From positions 1 to 24,126 of the IMG/VR virus record IMGVR_UViG_3300049826_000122: 24,126 nt of DNA. One strand, 5' to 3'. The notes beneath the pieces were generated by a model, which worked only from the letters and a program-made list of their open reading frames with translations, did no database searches and was not told the DNA's origin. A program made the translations under genes and the position numbers. The stretch's first letter is position 1. Each line of letters opens with the position of its first letter. Positions 3,324-6,656 of the stretch are shown here, one piece after another. Source of the stretch: a virus.

Positions 3324-3680
3324 ATGAATTTATCGAAATGGATCGAAAAGAACGGCGGCATTAATAGGGCCGCCAAGCAGCTCGGGGTTAGTATCCATAG
3401 AGTCTATGCCTGGCAGGCGTACGCCTGCCTGCCGAAGGCTGCCATGATGAGACAGATTTTCGAGAAGACGCGCGGCGCGGTCTCTTACAAGGAGCTGGTG
3501 GACGAGTACCTGGATCACACGATGGCTAAAAAAGGGGCGTCAAAACGGCCGAGGCGCGTCCCTAAAAAGAAGCGTAAACCCCTGCTGAACGCAATCGGCA
3601 CGCGGACGGGGATGCACCATAGTGCGGCGGCGCTCGCGAAGCTGGTCCGTAAGAGGCCCAAGCAAGATCCCGGCTTTTAG
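3324..3680 (+). CDS. Cro/YdaS-like helix-turn-helix regulator
   Basis: 118 residues. Residues 11-31 (GGINRAAKQLGVSIHRVYAW) form a clear helix-turn-helix, followed by a segment ending LPKAAMMRQIFEKTRG, typical of Cro/YdaS-type phage regulators where the HTH precedes a short P-x-x-x-x-x-I helix. The C-terminal half (from about residue 66) is very basic, with KRPRRVPKKKRK and a second basic tail, which is longer than usual and may add nonspecific DNA binding. It is divergent from the replication block and 46 bp upstream of the primase gene, so it probably controls the early promoters. Family assignment is by pattern; targets are inferred. Confidence 0.75.
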   Translation: MNLSKWIEKNGGINRAAKQLGVSIHRVYAWQAYACLPKAAMMRQIFEKTRGAVSYKELVDEYLDHTMAKKGASKRPRRVPKKKRKPLLNAIGTRTGMHHSAAALAKLVRKRPKQDPGF

Positions 3681-3726: not shown

Positions 3727-5956
3727 ATGACTGGTGAGGCGAAACGCTTACACGATTTAGGATTTGCTGTTCATTGGCTACGGTCGAAATCAAAGATCCC
3801 GGTCGAGTCCGGGTGGACGACGGGGGCGAGGGCTCCCTGGGCCGAATTAAAAAAGAAGTACCGCCCCGGCATGAATCTCGGCGTCCGCTTAGGTGAGGCA
3901 TCGCGGCGGGTACTTGGCAGGCGTGGACGTGGACGTGAAAGACCCGACGAAGCTCGCCGAGGCCGAGGCGAAGCTGGCAGAGATTACGCGTGGGCAGTTG
4001 TTTCCGGAAGTGCGATCGGGCGGCGGAAAGGGGTCGAGGCATCTCTATTGCATTACACCTGAGCCGTTTAAGATGGTCACGGTCGCACGGCAACCCGGCT
4101 GGGAAATTTGTATCTACTCGGAGGGCAGGCAGATGGTGCTGCCGCCGTCGATTCACCCGGTGACCGGTAAGGCATACGCGTGGACGGTGGGCGTGGACGG
4201 GGCCGTGCCGACGCTTGATGTGGAGCCGTGGCGAGCGTCGTCTGGGGGTGACGCGAAGGCGGCGATATCCGTAGACGACGGGTTTGAGCCCGTCGATGTC
4301 GACGTCGTCACCTCTGAGCTACCTGACGCAACGGTGGAGCTGATCTTATCGGGCGGCGGATGTGTTGACCGCTCGGCGGCGCTGTACGGCGTGGCGACGG
4401 CCATGGTGAAGGCCCGCTTCACGGATGCGGAGATATTATCAGTGCTCACGGACCGCAGTACGTTCTTAGGGAAGTGCGCCTACGATCATGCGCAGACGAC
4501 GTCGAGGGCGCGGGCGGCGGCCTGGGTGCTGCGCTATACGCTCACCAATGCGCGAGCCGATGTCTCGGCCGCGACGCTATTCGAGAGCGTGGTGGACGTA
4601 TCGGATGACGCGGACCTAGAGGCCTTAGGCAGCTTAACGGTGCCGCGGCGGGAGGACGGCTATTATACGCGCGGCGAGAAGGGGAAGCTGACTCCTAACT
4701 TTGATGCGCTCCTGGCCGCCTATGCGGCCGAGCACCCGTTTAGGACGATCGCGGACATGAAGGAGGTCTTTACTTTTAATGGGACGCACTACGTGGGCGT
4801 GACGCCGATCGAGCTAAAGTCCTTCGCCGAGGACTCGTTTCGGCCGAAGCCGACGGACTCGATCCGCACCGAATTCCTGAGCAAGGTCTTTGCAAACTGC
4901 GTAACGCGCAGGGAGTTTTTTACGCGCACGACAGAGGGGAAGGTCAACTTCCGCAACGGCGTGCTGGATGTCAGCAGCGGAGCGGAGAGGCTAGTCTCCC
5001 ACTCGCCGGAGTTTGGGTTTAGGGGCGTGCTGCCGTACGACTACGATGCGAAAGCCGAGTGCCCGGTGTTCGCCGAGTGGCTCAACGGGGTGATGCGCGG
5101 GGATGCGGATCTCGTAGCAATCCTGCAGGAGTATATGGGCTACGTCGTGCGTGGTGGGGACTATAAGTATCACAAGGCGCTCTGGCTCGGCGGCGTAGGG
5201 CGAAACGGTAAGAGTACTTTCGTCGACGTGCTAAAGGCCCTGATCGGCGTCGGCAACTTCGCGTGTATCTCGATTAAGGCACTCGTGAATGATCGCTTCG
5301 CTAGTGCGATGCTGGACGGCATGGTGGCGAATTTCTCTGAGGAGACGAGCCCGCAGGAGCTGGCCGACTCCGGGCCGTTTAAGAACCTAACGGGCGACGG
5401 GGAACTGCAGGCGCAAAAGAAGTACGGCGACCCGTACTTCTTTCGCAACCGCGCGAAGCTGATCATGACTTATAACCGCATCCCCGACTTGGCCGACTTA
5501 TCGCGCGGGATGCTCTCGAGACCGTTGATCGTGCCGTTCGAGAAAATCATTGCCGAGAAGGCGCAGGATCAAGGCATTAAGAGGAAGCTGTTTCGGGAGC
5601 TGCCGGGCATCTTTAACTTCGCGCTGCGTGGCTGGCATCGCTTAGAAGATCAGGGGCAGTTTACAGAGAGCTCAAGATCGGCGCTTGCCCTGAAGCGCGT
5701 CGAGCAGGAGTCGTGCAACGTCTATCAATGGGTTGAGCAGTACGTCGGCGGCGTCGAGGGTTGGCACGAGGGGGTCGCCGAAGAGGTCGGTAACTTCACT
5801 CCGGGTGAGCTCTATACGCGGTACTGTAAAAGGGAGCGAAGGGCGTATAGAGCGCCTGAGTTTTTCCGCCGATTAAATAAACACCCGCTGATTGAGAGCA
5901 GACGAAAAAAGGTAAATGGGACTCGAATTTATCGGGGCTTGGTTTTGGAATTTTGA
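3727..5956 (+). CDS. Primase-polymerase / D5-like SF3 helicase, interrupted by a frameshift near residue 56-61
   Basis: Two overlapping frames make one gene. Frame A starts at ATG 3727 and carries the prim-pol N-terminus (GFAVHWLRSKSKIPVESGW and NLGVRLG) but closes at 4060-4062. Frame B opens after a TAG at 3890-3892 and runs to 5956 with 687 codons. Frame B holds the catalytic GVDVDVKD (Asp12, Asp14 of that frame) and SGGGKGSRHLY (His50) of the prim-pol domain. It then holds a D5-type helicase: Walker A GVGRNGKST (434-442), Walker B MVANFSEE (477-484), motif C KLIMTYNRIP (522-531) and the arginine-finger region SRGMLSRPL. Joining the frames needs one skipped base between 3893 and about 3911. 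This could be a sequencing error, a real mutation or recoding. If translated only from GTG 3893 the helicase stays intact. Predicted role: priming and unwinding at the phage origin just downstream. Confidence 0.85.
3893..3911 (+). other. Frameshift zone in the primase gene
   Basis: The 5' frame is conserved up to LGEAS and the downstream frame is conserved from GGYLAGVDVD, so the change must fall in this GC-rich stretch (GCATCGCGGCGGG). Moving from the first frame to the second requires skipping one base, equal to one extra base in the DNA. No recognised +1 recoding motif is in frame here. Confidence 0.75.
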
Positions 5957-5957
5957 T

Positions 5958-5975
5958 GGACAGATCGATCTGTCC
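5958..5975. repeat. 18-bp perfect palindrome
   Basis: GGACAGATCGATCTGTCC is self-complementary over all 18 bp and joins one forward and one reverse repeat unit head to head. It begins 1 bp after the primase-helicase stop codon. Such a symmetric site would suit a dimeric binding protein. Confidence 0.95.
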
Positions 5976-6071
5976 TTGATCTGTCTTGATCTGTCCACAG
6001 AACGGGGGTGCGTTATAAAATAGAGGCTGAGTGGGGATTGTGGACAGATCAAGGACAGATCAAGGACAGAT
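5968..6071. repeat. Inverted repeat 1 (31/32-nt arms)
   Basis: The left arm 5968-5998 carries three reverse units and the right arm 6040-6071 carries three forward units with 11-bp periodicity. The arms are exact complements except for one base missing in the left arm at the middle unit (TGTCTTG against TGTCCTTG). The 41-bp spacer 5999-6039 includes TTATAAAATAG. Confidence 0.92.
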
Positions 6072-6139
6072 GTTTTTCACCACCATCTGTCCAGCGCGAA
6101 AGCGAGAATTTGCCTCGGAAAGTGAATGGGAAATATACT

Positions 6140-6275
6140 CTGTGGACAGATTGGACAGATCTTTCCTCTAAAAGTTTATAGTAAGAGATAGAAAGGGGGA
6201 AATAGAGAGAAATAAGGGGGTATATAGCGTATAGAGAGAGAGTAGGAGCAAAAGATCTGTCCAATCTGTCCACAG
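6140..6275. repeat. Inverted repeat 2 (perfect 25-bp arms)
   Basis: Arm 6140-6164 (starting CTGTGGACAGATTGGACAGA) is the exact reverse complement of 6251-6275. Each arm holds two repeat units 9 bp apart. The 86-bp spacer between them is strongly purine-rich on the plus strand, with runs such as GAAAGGGGGAAATAGAGAGA and almost no C. A cruciform or an unwinding element is conceivable. Confidence 0.95.
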
Positions 6276-6314
6276 CCATTTTCGAGTATGTAAAAACAAA
6301 CGGAAACGCATCGA

Positions 6315-6656
6315 ATGGGAAAACGAAAAAGCCGAATTATTAAACAAGATGGTGGGGTGAATTCAAAGCAGCGACAACAACTCGCGTCCGCCATCCGGCA
6401 GGTGTGGAGTTGGTCGCACGCGAGAAAGATTTGCATAGCGAGGGCAACCGATGACGAGGGTTTTGGGCGTTGTGAGATTTGTAAAAAGAAAGTGCCGAGA
6501 CTGTTCGCGGACCATATTGAGGCATGCGGGGATTTGTTGGAAGAGGGTTATCTGTCCAGAATGTTCCGCCCTTCGACAGCTCTCCAGGCTCTCTGCAAAA
6601 AATGCCACGACGCTAAAACCAGAATGGAACGAAAACGAAATGCTGAAGGATTCTGA
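6315..6656 (+). CDS. HNH endonuclease
   Basis: 113 residues. The motif runs CEIC (53-56), then ADHIEACGD (65-73) giving the first catalytic-type DH pair, then LQALCKKCHDAKT (90-102) with CxxCH. This is the zinc-bound beta-beta-alpha-metal layout of phage HNH nucleases. The central Asn, normally in NLQxLC, appears as Ala here (STALQALC), so activity is uncertain. The N-terminus is basic (GKRKSRIIK). HNH genes near terminase genes often act with the terminase in DNA cutting and packaging, which fits this location at the start of the packaging block and just after the repeat region. Confidence 0.8.
   Translation: MGKRKSRIIKQDGGVNSKQRQQLASAIRQVWSWSHARKICIARATDDEGFGRCEICKKKVPRLFADHIEACGDLLEEGYLSRMFRPSTALQALCKKCHDAKTRMERKRNAEGF

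Follow-up and report, generated by a model that had tools for sequence, protein, structure and literature searches.

The repeat array at positions 5957-6280 of the window (the entire 24,126-bp linear IMG/VR contig that was analyzed, possibly a fragment) very probably serves a tailed phage as its replication origin, or as the initiator-binding part of that origin, with the primase-helicase encoded immediately upstream as the initiator that acts through the mechanism outlined below. The initial annotation had described the array as an iteron-like origin, and this reading is supported by the recurrence of the layout behind related primase-helicases and by the annotations of the Sfi21 and P4 records; together with the fold match to SaPI5 Rep, these observations lead us to regard the array, by analogy, as most likely an iteron origin next to its initiator gene, of the P4/SaPI/PICI kind. 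This origin type itself is already known; what appears to be new, within the literature searched and with precedents in subscription journals possible, is the wide spread of a PICI-like layout among tailed phages and a wing-to-unit code with concerted switching.

The repeat array and the adjacent primase-helicase gene

The 8-bp unit, GGACAGAT/ATCTGTCC, is present in 11 exact copies at 5958-6271 and, with the single variant AGACAGAT at 5979-5986, yields six units per orientation: the unit search placed the starts of the forward units at 5958, 6042, 6053, 6064, 6144 and 6153, and those of the reverse units at 5968, 5979 (the variant), 5989, 6085, 6255 and 6264. The left iteron cluster (5958-6000) consists of one forward and three reverse units, including the variant, and contains the exact 18-bp palindrome GGACAGATCGATCTGTCC (5958-5975). 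The middle cluster (6042-6092) comprises three forward units spaced by 11 bp and one reverse unit, and pairs with part of the left one in a long imperfect inverted repeat, 5968-5999 versus 6039-6071, in which 32 of 33 nt match and one base is missing, as read from the sequence. Downstream of these additional unit sets lies a perfect 25-bp inverted repeat, with two forward units in the left arm (6140-6164, plus strand) and two reverse units in the right arm (6251-6275, minus strand). Between the arms is a tract (6171-6254, plus strand; 81% purine, 63% AT) with the strongest purine bias of any 84 nt in the contig, a proposed DNA-unwinding element. The unit counts, the palindrome, the 25-bp repeat and the eight GATC sites of the initial annotation were all recovered, and its 31/32-nt inverted repeat comes close to the 32/33 measured here; the helical-turn spacing of 9-11 bp that it gave holds inside the clusters, where start-to-start distances of 9, 10 and 11 bp are found, but a distance of 21 bp occurs as well.

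The array far exceeds chance expectation: across 100 dinucleotide-preserving shuffles of the whole contig, the maximum was one copy of GGACAGAT per 320 bp, compared with the 11 real copies, and five copies for any 8-mer. Only two exact copies lie outside the array, at 6550 (inside the HNH gene) and 13754, and the 24-kb contig contains no second cluster. Thus, the unit is not scattered over the genome, a pattern that had been named beforehand as one that would point to an operator or terminator family. GC skew, the other sequence-wide check proposed in advance, shows no inversion at the array and thus does not back the origin reading. As single-stranded DNA, the region has strong predicted folding (z -12.3), which is expected because the units are inverted; this structure may have a functional role like that proposed for pRN1 (PMC4234260). 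A search of Rfam gave no match in the region, and a plain intrinsic terminator was rejected given that the terminator-like sites, at 5841-5936, precede the array.

The first unit starts 2 bp past the end of the primase-helicase open reading frame (3893-5956, plus strand), so that the array follows this gene as directly as originally described. The encoded protein, the proposed initiator, combines Prim-Pol, D5_N and DUF5906/SF3 helicase domains with a C-terminal winged helix, and its PHROG matches are to DNA primase. Near the 5' end, the prim-pol frame is broken: the first ~55 residues (MTGEAKRL...NLGVRLGEAS) are encoded in the frame starting at 3727, followed by the 3893 frame, whereas the prim-pol genes of the relatives are uninterrupted where the window has its break (3727-3900); the break is either a sequencing error or real. 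The model of the helicase part and C-terminus (mean pLDDT 86.7) has the SaPI5 primase-helicase as its best whole-model structural match (VIA Z 30.1, rmsd 4.8, 385 residues). The C-terminal winged-helix domain (residues ~617-687; 5741-5956, plus strand) is predicted to consist of helices and a beta-hairpin wing, with pLDDT mostly in the range of 74 to 92; the wing strands, at 417-420 and 423-426 of the model, contain K673 and R678. Upstream, at 3324-3680 on the plus strand, lies the gene for a YdaS/Cro-like helix-turn-helix (HTH) protein, a probable regulator of the replication operon; the next gene after the array, encoding an HNH endonuclease (6315-6656, plus strand), bounds the non-coding region. 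Other genes near the primase-helicase encode a DUF2800 exonuclease, an SNF2-type helicase, a ParB-like protein, terminase and capsid.

Arrays behind other primase-helicases

Six relatives of the window (L003-L006, L028 and L032) share a helicase part that is 48-61% identical to that of the window; four were found first (49-53% identical over the best segment) and two more through a profile search. In all six, the primase-helicase gene is directly followed by short repeats in both orientations, and in each case the sequence differs from GGACAGAT, so that of the conservation proposed as a check the arrays are retained and the unit sequences are not. The units are GGTGACG/GGTGACAG in L003, GGGACACT in L004, TGTAGGGT in L005, TGACGACC in L006, TGTAGGAT in L028 and AGTGCAGTA in L032; those of L003 and L028 were read by eye because automatic 7-mer counts chose other motifs. 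At each of the seven loci of the family, the strongest purine bias over 60 nt is found no more than 450 bp past the primase stop codon.

The array is kept in L005 and L032, both of which have no HTH gene at the corresponding place. In these two loci, a small CsrA-like open reading frame (LRLKRKLGDKIVIR... and LRLKRRVGEKVFAK..., respectively) takes the place of the HTH gene within ~900 bp upstream of the primase frame, which starts at L005:4089 and L032:2915. In L005 (4089-5000), a different N-terminal part without a Pfam Prim-Pol match is joined to the helicase, yet the locus retains both the helicase and the downstream array; it seems that primase parts are exchanged. Searches of genome collections with the window primase did not find a close relative, and the profile yielded only a prophage-type locus with 23% identity.

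Beyond this family, 11 of the 25 primase-helicase genes sampled are followed by a stretch whose 7-mer count was never matched in 100 shuffles; in control stretches within the same genes, no 7-mer exceeded four copies. Among these 11 are the genes of Marinobacter phage PS6 (GGGACAA), Streptococcus phage Javan633 (GTTACGT), Lacticaseibacillus phage R24.1 (GTGACGG) and a Halorubrum virus (GTAACGG). No significant downstream array was found, within the same sample, for Vibrio 1.046, Vibrio 1.055, Klebsiella phi_270, B8b, PV4-TP1 and L034; thus, the layout is common, not universal. Among closely related streptococcal primases of the Javan633 type (L052-L081), the units GTTACGT, GTAACAA and GGTAACC alternate along with changes of the C-terminus. 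These units have GTnAC in common, which we take to be similar to the RFX half-site.

The unit of the window itself occurs in other settings. A pattern of three GGACAGAT was detected in 21 viral contigs compared with 11 for the reversed-unit control TAGACAGG x3, a count that by itself is weak evidence given the only two-fold difference, and several of the matches resemble coding repeats (L015, L016, L019, L027). In four contigs, rows of GGACAGAT at 11-bp spacing lie inside initiator-like genes (L017, 8270-8400; L021, 783-890; L022, 10394-10524; L013, 5293-5423); those of L017 and L022 match O-like/DnaD-like families, and those of L013, L021 and L022 directly precede dnaB. These rows are possibly lambda-like origins with the same unit, and convergence is conceivable. 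Arrays of GGACAGAT also flank primases of other types (L007, L008, L011/L012, L014, L026 and L036), namely AEP-TOTE+D5, NrS-1 HBD+D5, Toprim+DUF3987 and Prim-Pol+AAA_25, which suggests that this unit has been used repeatedly. In L014 (10870-11134), the array, with A/T- and GA-rich tracts inside, is located upstream of the Toprim/DUF3987 primase gene, not downstream.

Wing residues and unit bases

To identify residues that may read the unit, covariation was analyzed in the R24-type family (77 loci), using a set of 34 non-redundant proteins and 649 alignment columns from which loci where automatic unit finding failed were omitted (among others, L108, L115, L122, L127, L130, L144, L152 and L156). 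The R24-type units vary around TG-x-y-GGGT, with the two central bases being the most variable. The unit register was set by the TGNNGGNT skeleton, a choice that is a possible source of bias, and the most frequent 7-mers found without the skeleton agree with it. For base 3 of the unit, the best predictor among the 649 columns is residue 754 (z 6.1); for base 4, it is residue 759 (z 7.1, the next column scoring 4.6). Both residues are located in the wing (751-763), where they occupy positions 87 and 92 in the domain model, within strands that span 84-88 and 91-99. In the proposed code, histidine at 754 goes with A and arginine with T at base 3, Arg754 accompanying all six TA units; tryptophan at 759 goes with AC and leucine with CA.

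When training was limited to relatives with less than 70% identity, residue 759 ranked first for both bases, with 29 of 34 correct predictions for base 4, and residue 754 ranked second for base 3; under a 55% identity limit, 759 ranked third for base 3 and first for base 4, and 754 sixth for base 3. The predictor trained on the R24-type proteins was then applied to the window family (seven members, ~22% identical), in which K673 and R678 correspond to 754 and 759: the R678 column was the single best of 399, with six of seven correct compared with four of seven for the majority guess, and the K673 column gave five of seven. One family member, L032, breaks the residue-to-base code. Branch-by-branch parsimony and a sister-pair test did not clearly single out 754 and 759; the units change 16-19 times on the tree of 34 taxa and pairs with a common unit are few, which accounts for this lack of clarity.

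Near-identical loci reveal the same association. Among pairs with less than 3% core difference, the wings differ by 10% when the units agree (102 pairs) and by 59% when the units differ (70 pairs), figures that are given as description with no p-value because the pairs are not independent; the recognition helix is unchanged in these pairs, and the unit copies switch in concert. L110 and L126, with units TGAAGGGT and TGTAGGGT, respectively, are separated by three wing substitutions, one of them His754Arg, and the matching unit positions change from GGTGAAGGGT to GGTGTAGGGT. Between L159 and L151, Trp759Leu is found among other differences, and TGACGGGT is replaced by TGCAGGGT within otherwise similar flanks. 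Over residues 1-750, L085 and L091 differ at a single position; they also differ in the last 27 residues, and their units are TGACGGAT and GGGAGGAT. Given that the 3' end of the gene and the array adjoin, recombination alone could move wing and array together; the cross-family result, albeit from seven sequences, argues against recombination as the sole cause and for a functional match of wing and unit.

Taken together, the covariation in the R24-type and window families suggests, at the level of sequence, that the unit is read by the wing and not by the recognition helix. The C-terminal domain of R24 is closest to RFX DNA-binding domains (8zjr, Z 9.5; 1dp7, Z 8.5); its similarity to the P4 origin-binding domain (1ka8, Z 7.3) is within the range of unrelated winged helices, and the Javan633 protein gives a weak Pfam RFX match, below the cut-off. 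In RFX1, the wing strands contact the major groove and helix 3 contributes only one side chain, in the minor groove (PMC8998557; PMC2533330), a mode of contact that fits the covariation map in that the map points to the wing rather than the helix. We consider it moderately probable that an RFX-like wing is what D5/P4-type phage primase-helicases use to read their units, with a simple residue-to-base code that holds across families, and that concerted switching through one to a few wing residues gives rise to rapidly diversifying, private origin specificities.

Proposed mechanism, alternatives and comparison with known systems

Binding, melting, priming and the start of replication at the array, which we infer, would proceed as follows. 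The C-terminal winged helix of the primase-helicase would bind the 8-bp units, mainly via the two wing strands in the major groove, as in RFX; the oppositely oriented units that flank the purine/AT tract would load two helicase rings face to face; the SF3 motors would melt the purine/AT-rich tract; and the fused Prim-Pol domain would prime the exposed strands.

The main rival stems from the organization of P4, where the cluster directly behind the alpha gene is annotated as crr and the annotated ori lies ~4.5 kb away; by analogy, the array in the window might be necessary for replication without being the start point. Such a crr-like or copy-control element would be bound by the primase-helicase and be needed for, or limit, replication, with the strands first opening elsewhere, outside a contig that is linear and may be incomplete. 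The purine-biased, AT-rich tract between inverted arms, which is comparable to that of Sfi21 at its annotated origin, and the lack of a second GGACAGAT cluster in the 24 kb make this reading improbable. A role as an operator or silencer, with the HTH protein, or the primase as its own repressor, controlling transcription from the units, is less probable still: an HTH regulator gene is indeed located upstream and two weak promoter-like matches fall inside the array, but neither the HTH gene nor the primase gene is preceded by an exact GGACAGAT, the arrays of L005 and L032 persist without an HTH gene there, and the unit bases track the primase wing. Of the two candidate initiators named in the initial annotation, the prim-pol/D5 protein is favored over the HTH protein: the unit bases covary with its C-terminal wing, and the L005 and L032 arrays occur without the HTH gene. 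A pac or cos site read by the small terminase, to which the large terminase gene ~3.5 kb downstream of the array and the PS6 array directly before a small gene and the large terminase gene could point, is hardly credible, considering that the arrays follow the primase in families with differing neighbor genes and that in Sfi21, by which we judge that location is not tied to the terminase or the genome end, the annotated origin stays with the primase (34.5 kb), far from the terminase genes (0-2.4 kb) and cos (40.7 kb).

An origin read by the wing of the adjacent primase-helicase would bear on the old question of how self-loading helicases select an origin, and of how that sequence can change without killing the phage, which is now directly testable in natural near-identical pairs whose differences are confined to a small number of wing residues and to one or two bases per unit. 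If the proposed reading is correct, the unit of an uncharacterized phage would be predictable from its protein and vice versa, and many metagenomic phages could have their origins annotated; the reading would also account for the mutual incompatibility of replication modules, with implications for satellites and for origin-based phage resistance (the Sfi21 element).

For comparison with known origins, the anchors in CHARACTERISED systems are the Sfi21 record, the P4 record, the PICI origins (PMC6092414) and the SaPI5 structure match. The NrS-1 polymerase resembles the window protein in the fusion of Prim-Pol to a related helicase-like C-terminal region (Z ~20); it primes at the single-stranded template motifs TTTGGTTA and GTG, with the 8-nt site present only twice in the genome (PMC8718748, PMC7102993). 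GTGG adjoins some GGACAGAT units in the window, such short motifs being common. ORF904 of pRN1 shares with the window the combination of Prim-Pol, SF3 helicase and winged helix, and an essential region directly downstream of the gene (PMC4234260). According to its authors, however, this region is a 100-nt stem-loop with no iteron structure, and specific binding was not seen (PMC4234260); a stem-loop origin of this type (~100 nt, no iterons) was rejected for the window, where pairing comes from the inverted iteron copies.

The Sfi21 record marks the spot behind the primase as 'origin of replication, 302 bp non-coding region, phage inhibitory sequence', and its sequence contains inverted GTTACT units that flank an AT-rich tract. 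As in the window, the array lies directly behind an SF3 primase gene, with inverted GTTACT-type units around the AT-rich tract; the unit, the host and the N-terminal composition differ, and the gene is shorter (382 aa). In the P4 record, 'ori type 1 repeats' (8 bp, both orientations) are annotated in two places: in crr, which directly follows alpha, and in ori. P4 thus resembles the window in the 8-bp units of both orientations directly behind the primase-helicase gene, and is unlike it in the separate second ori cluster and the two 120-bp direct repeats in crr. The P4 primase is of the Toprim type (PMC4234260), and the C-terminal winged helix of alpha binds the units, according to PMC4234260, which cites Ziegelin & Lanka and Yeo. 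In a single case, noticed by eye and after the fact, the P4 wing (EKRHTKQG, unit TGAA) is similar to that of L110 (RKHTKFG, likewise with TGAA).

The SaPI and PICI Rep-ori systems (SaPI5 Rep, 7OLA/7OM0; PMC6092414; SCCmec Cch2, PMC7581432), the SaPI features of which are taken here from descriptions in papers rather than SaPI records, likewise have an initiator helicase, sometimes fused to a primase, with the origin directly 3'. In PICIs, the origin follows the initiator gene immediately on its 3' side, and its AT-rich region is always flanked by two sets of iterons (PMC6092414); the iterons are recognized by the C-terminal domain of the initiator (PMC6092414, PMC7581432). The mixed array was initially described as exceeding a standard iteron row in complexity; this holds against plasmid iterons, but the mixed layout is usual for P4- and PICI-type origins. 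The window differs from SaPI and PICI in being a tailed-phage contig with head and packaging genes and a Prim-Pol primase, and in its markedly polypurine unwinding tract and the three clusters of GGACAGAT units. Its closest fold match is SaPI5 Rep, and it combines the features of the P4/SaPI/PICI kind: an SF3/AAA+ helicase with D5-type composition (D5_N, DUF5906 and primase PHROGs; SaPI5 Rep, Z 30), a predicted C-terminal winged helix on the initiator, and a series of short repeats that directly follow the initiator gene on its 3' side (12 units, the first 2 bp past the stop codon).
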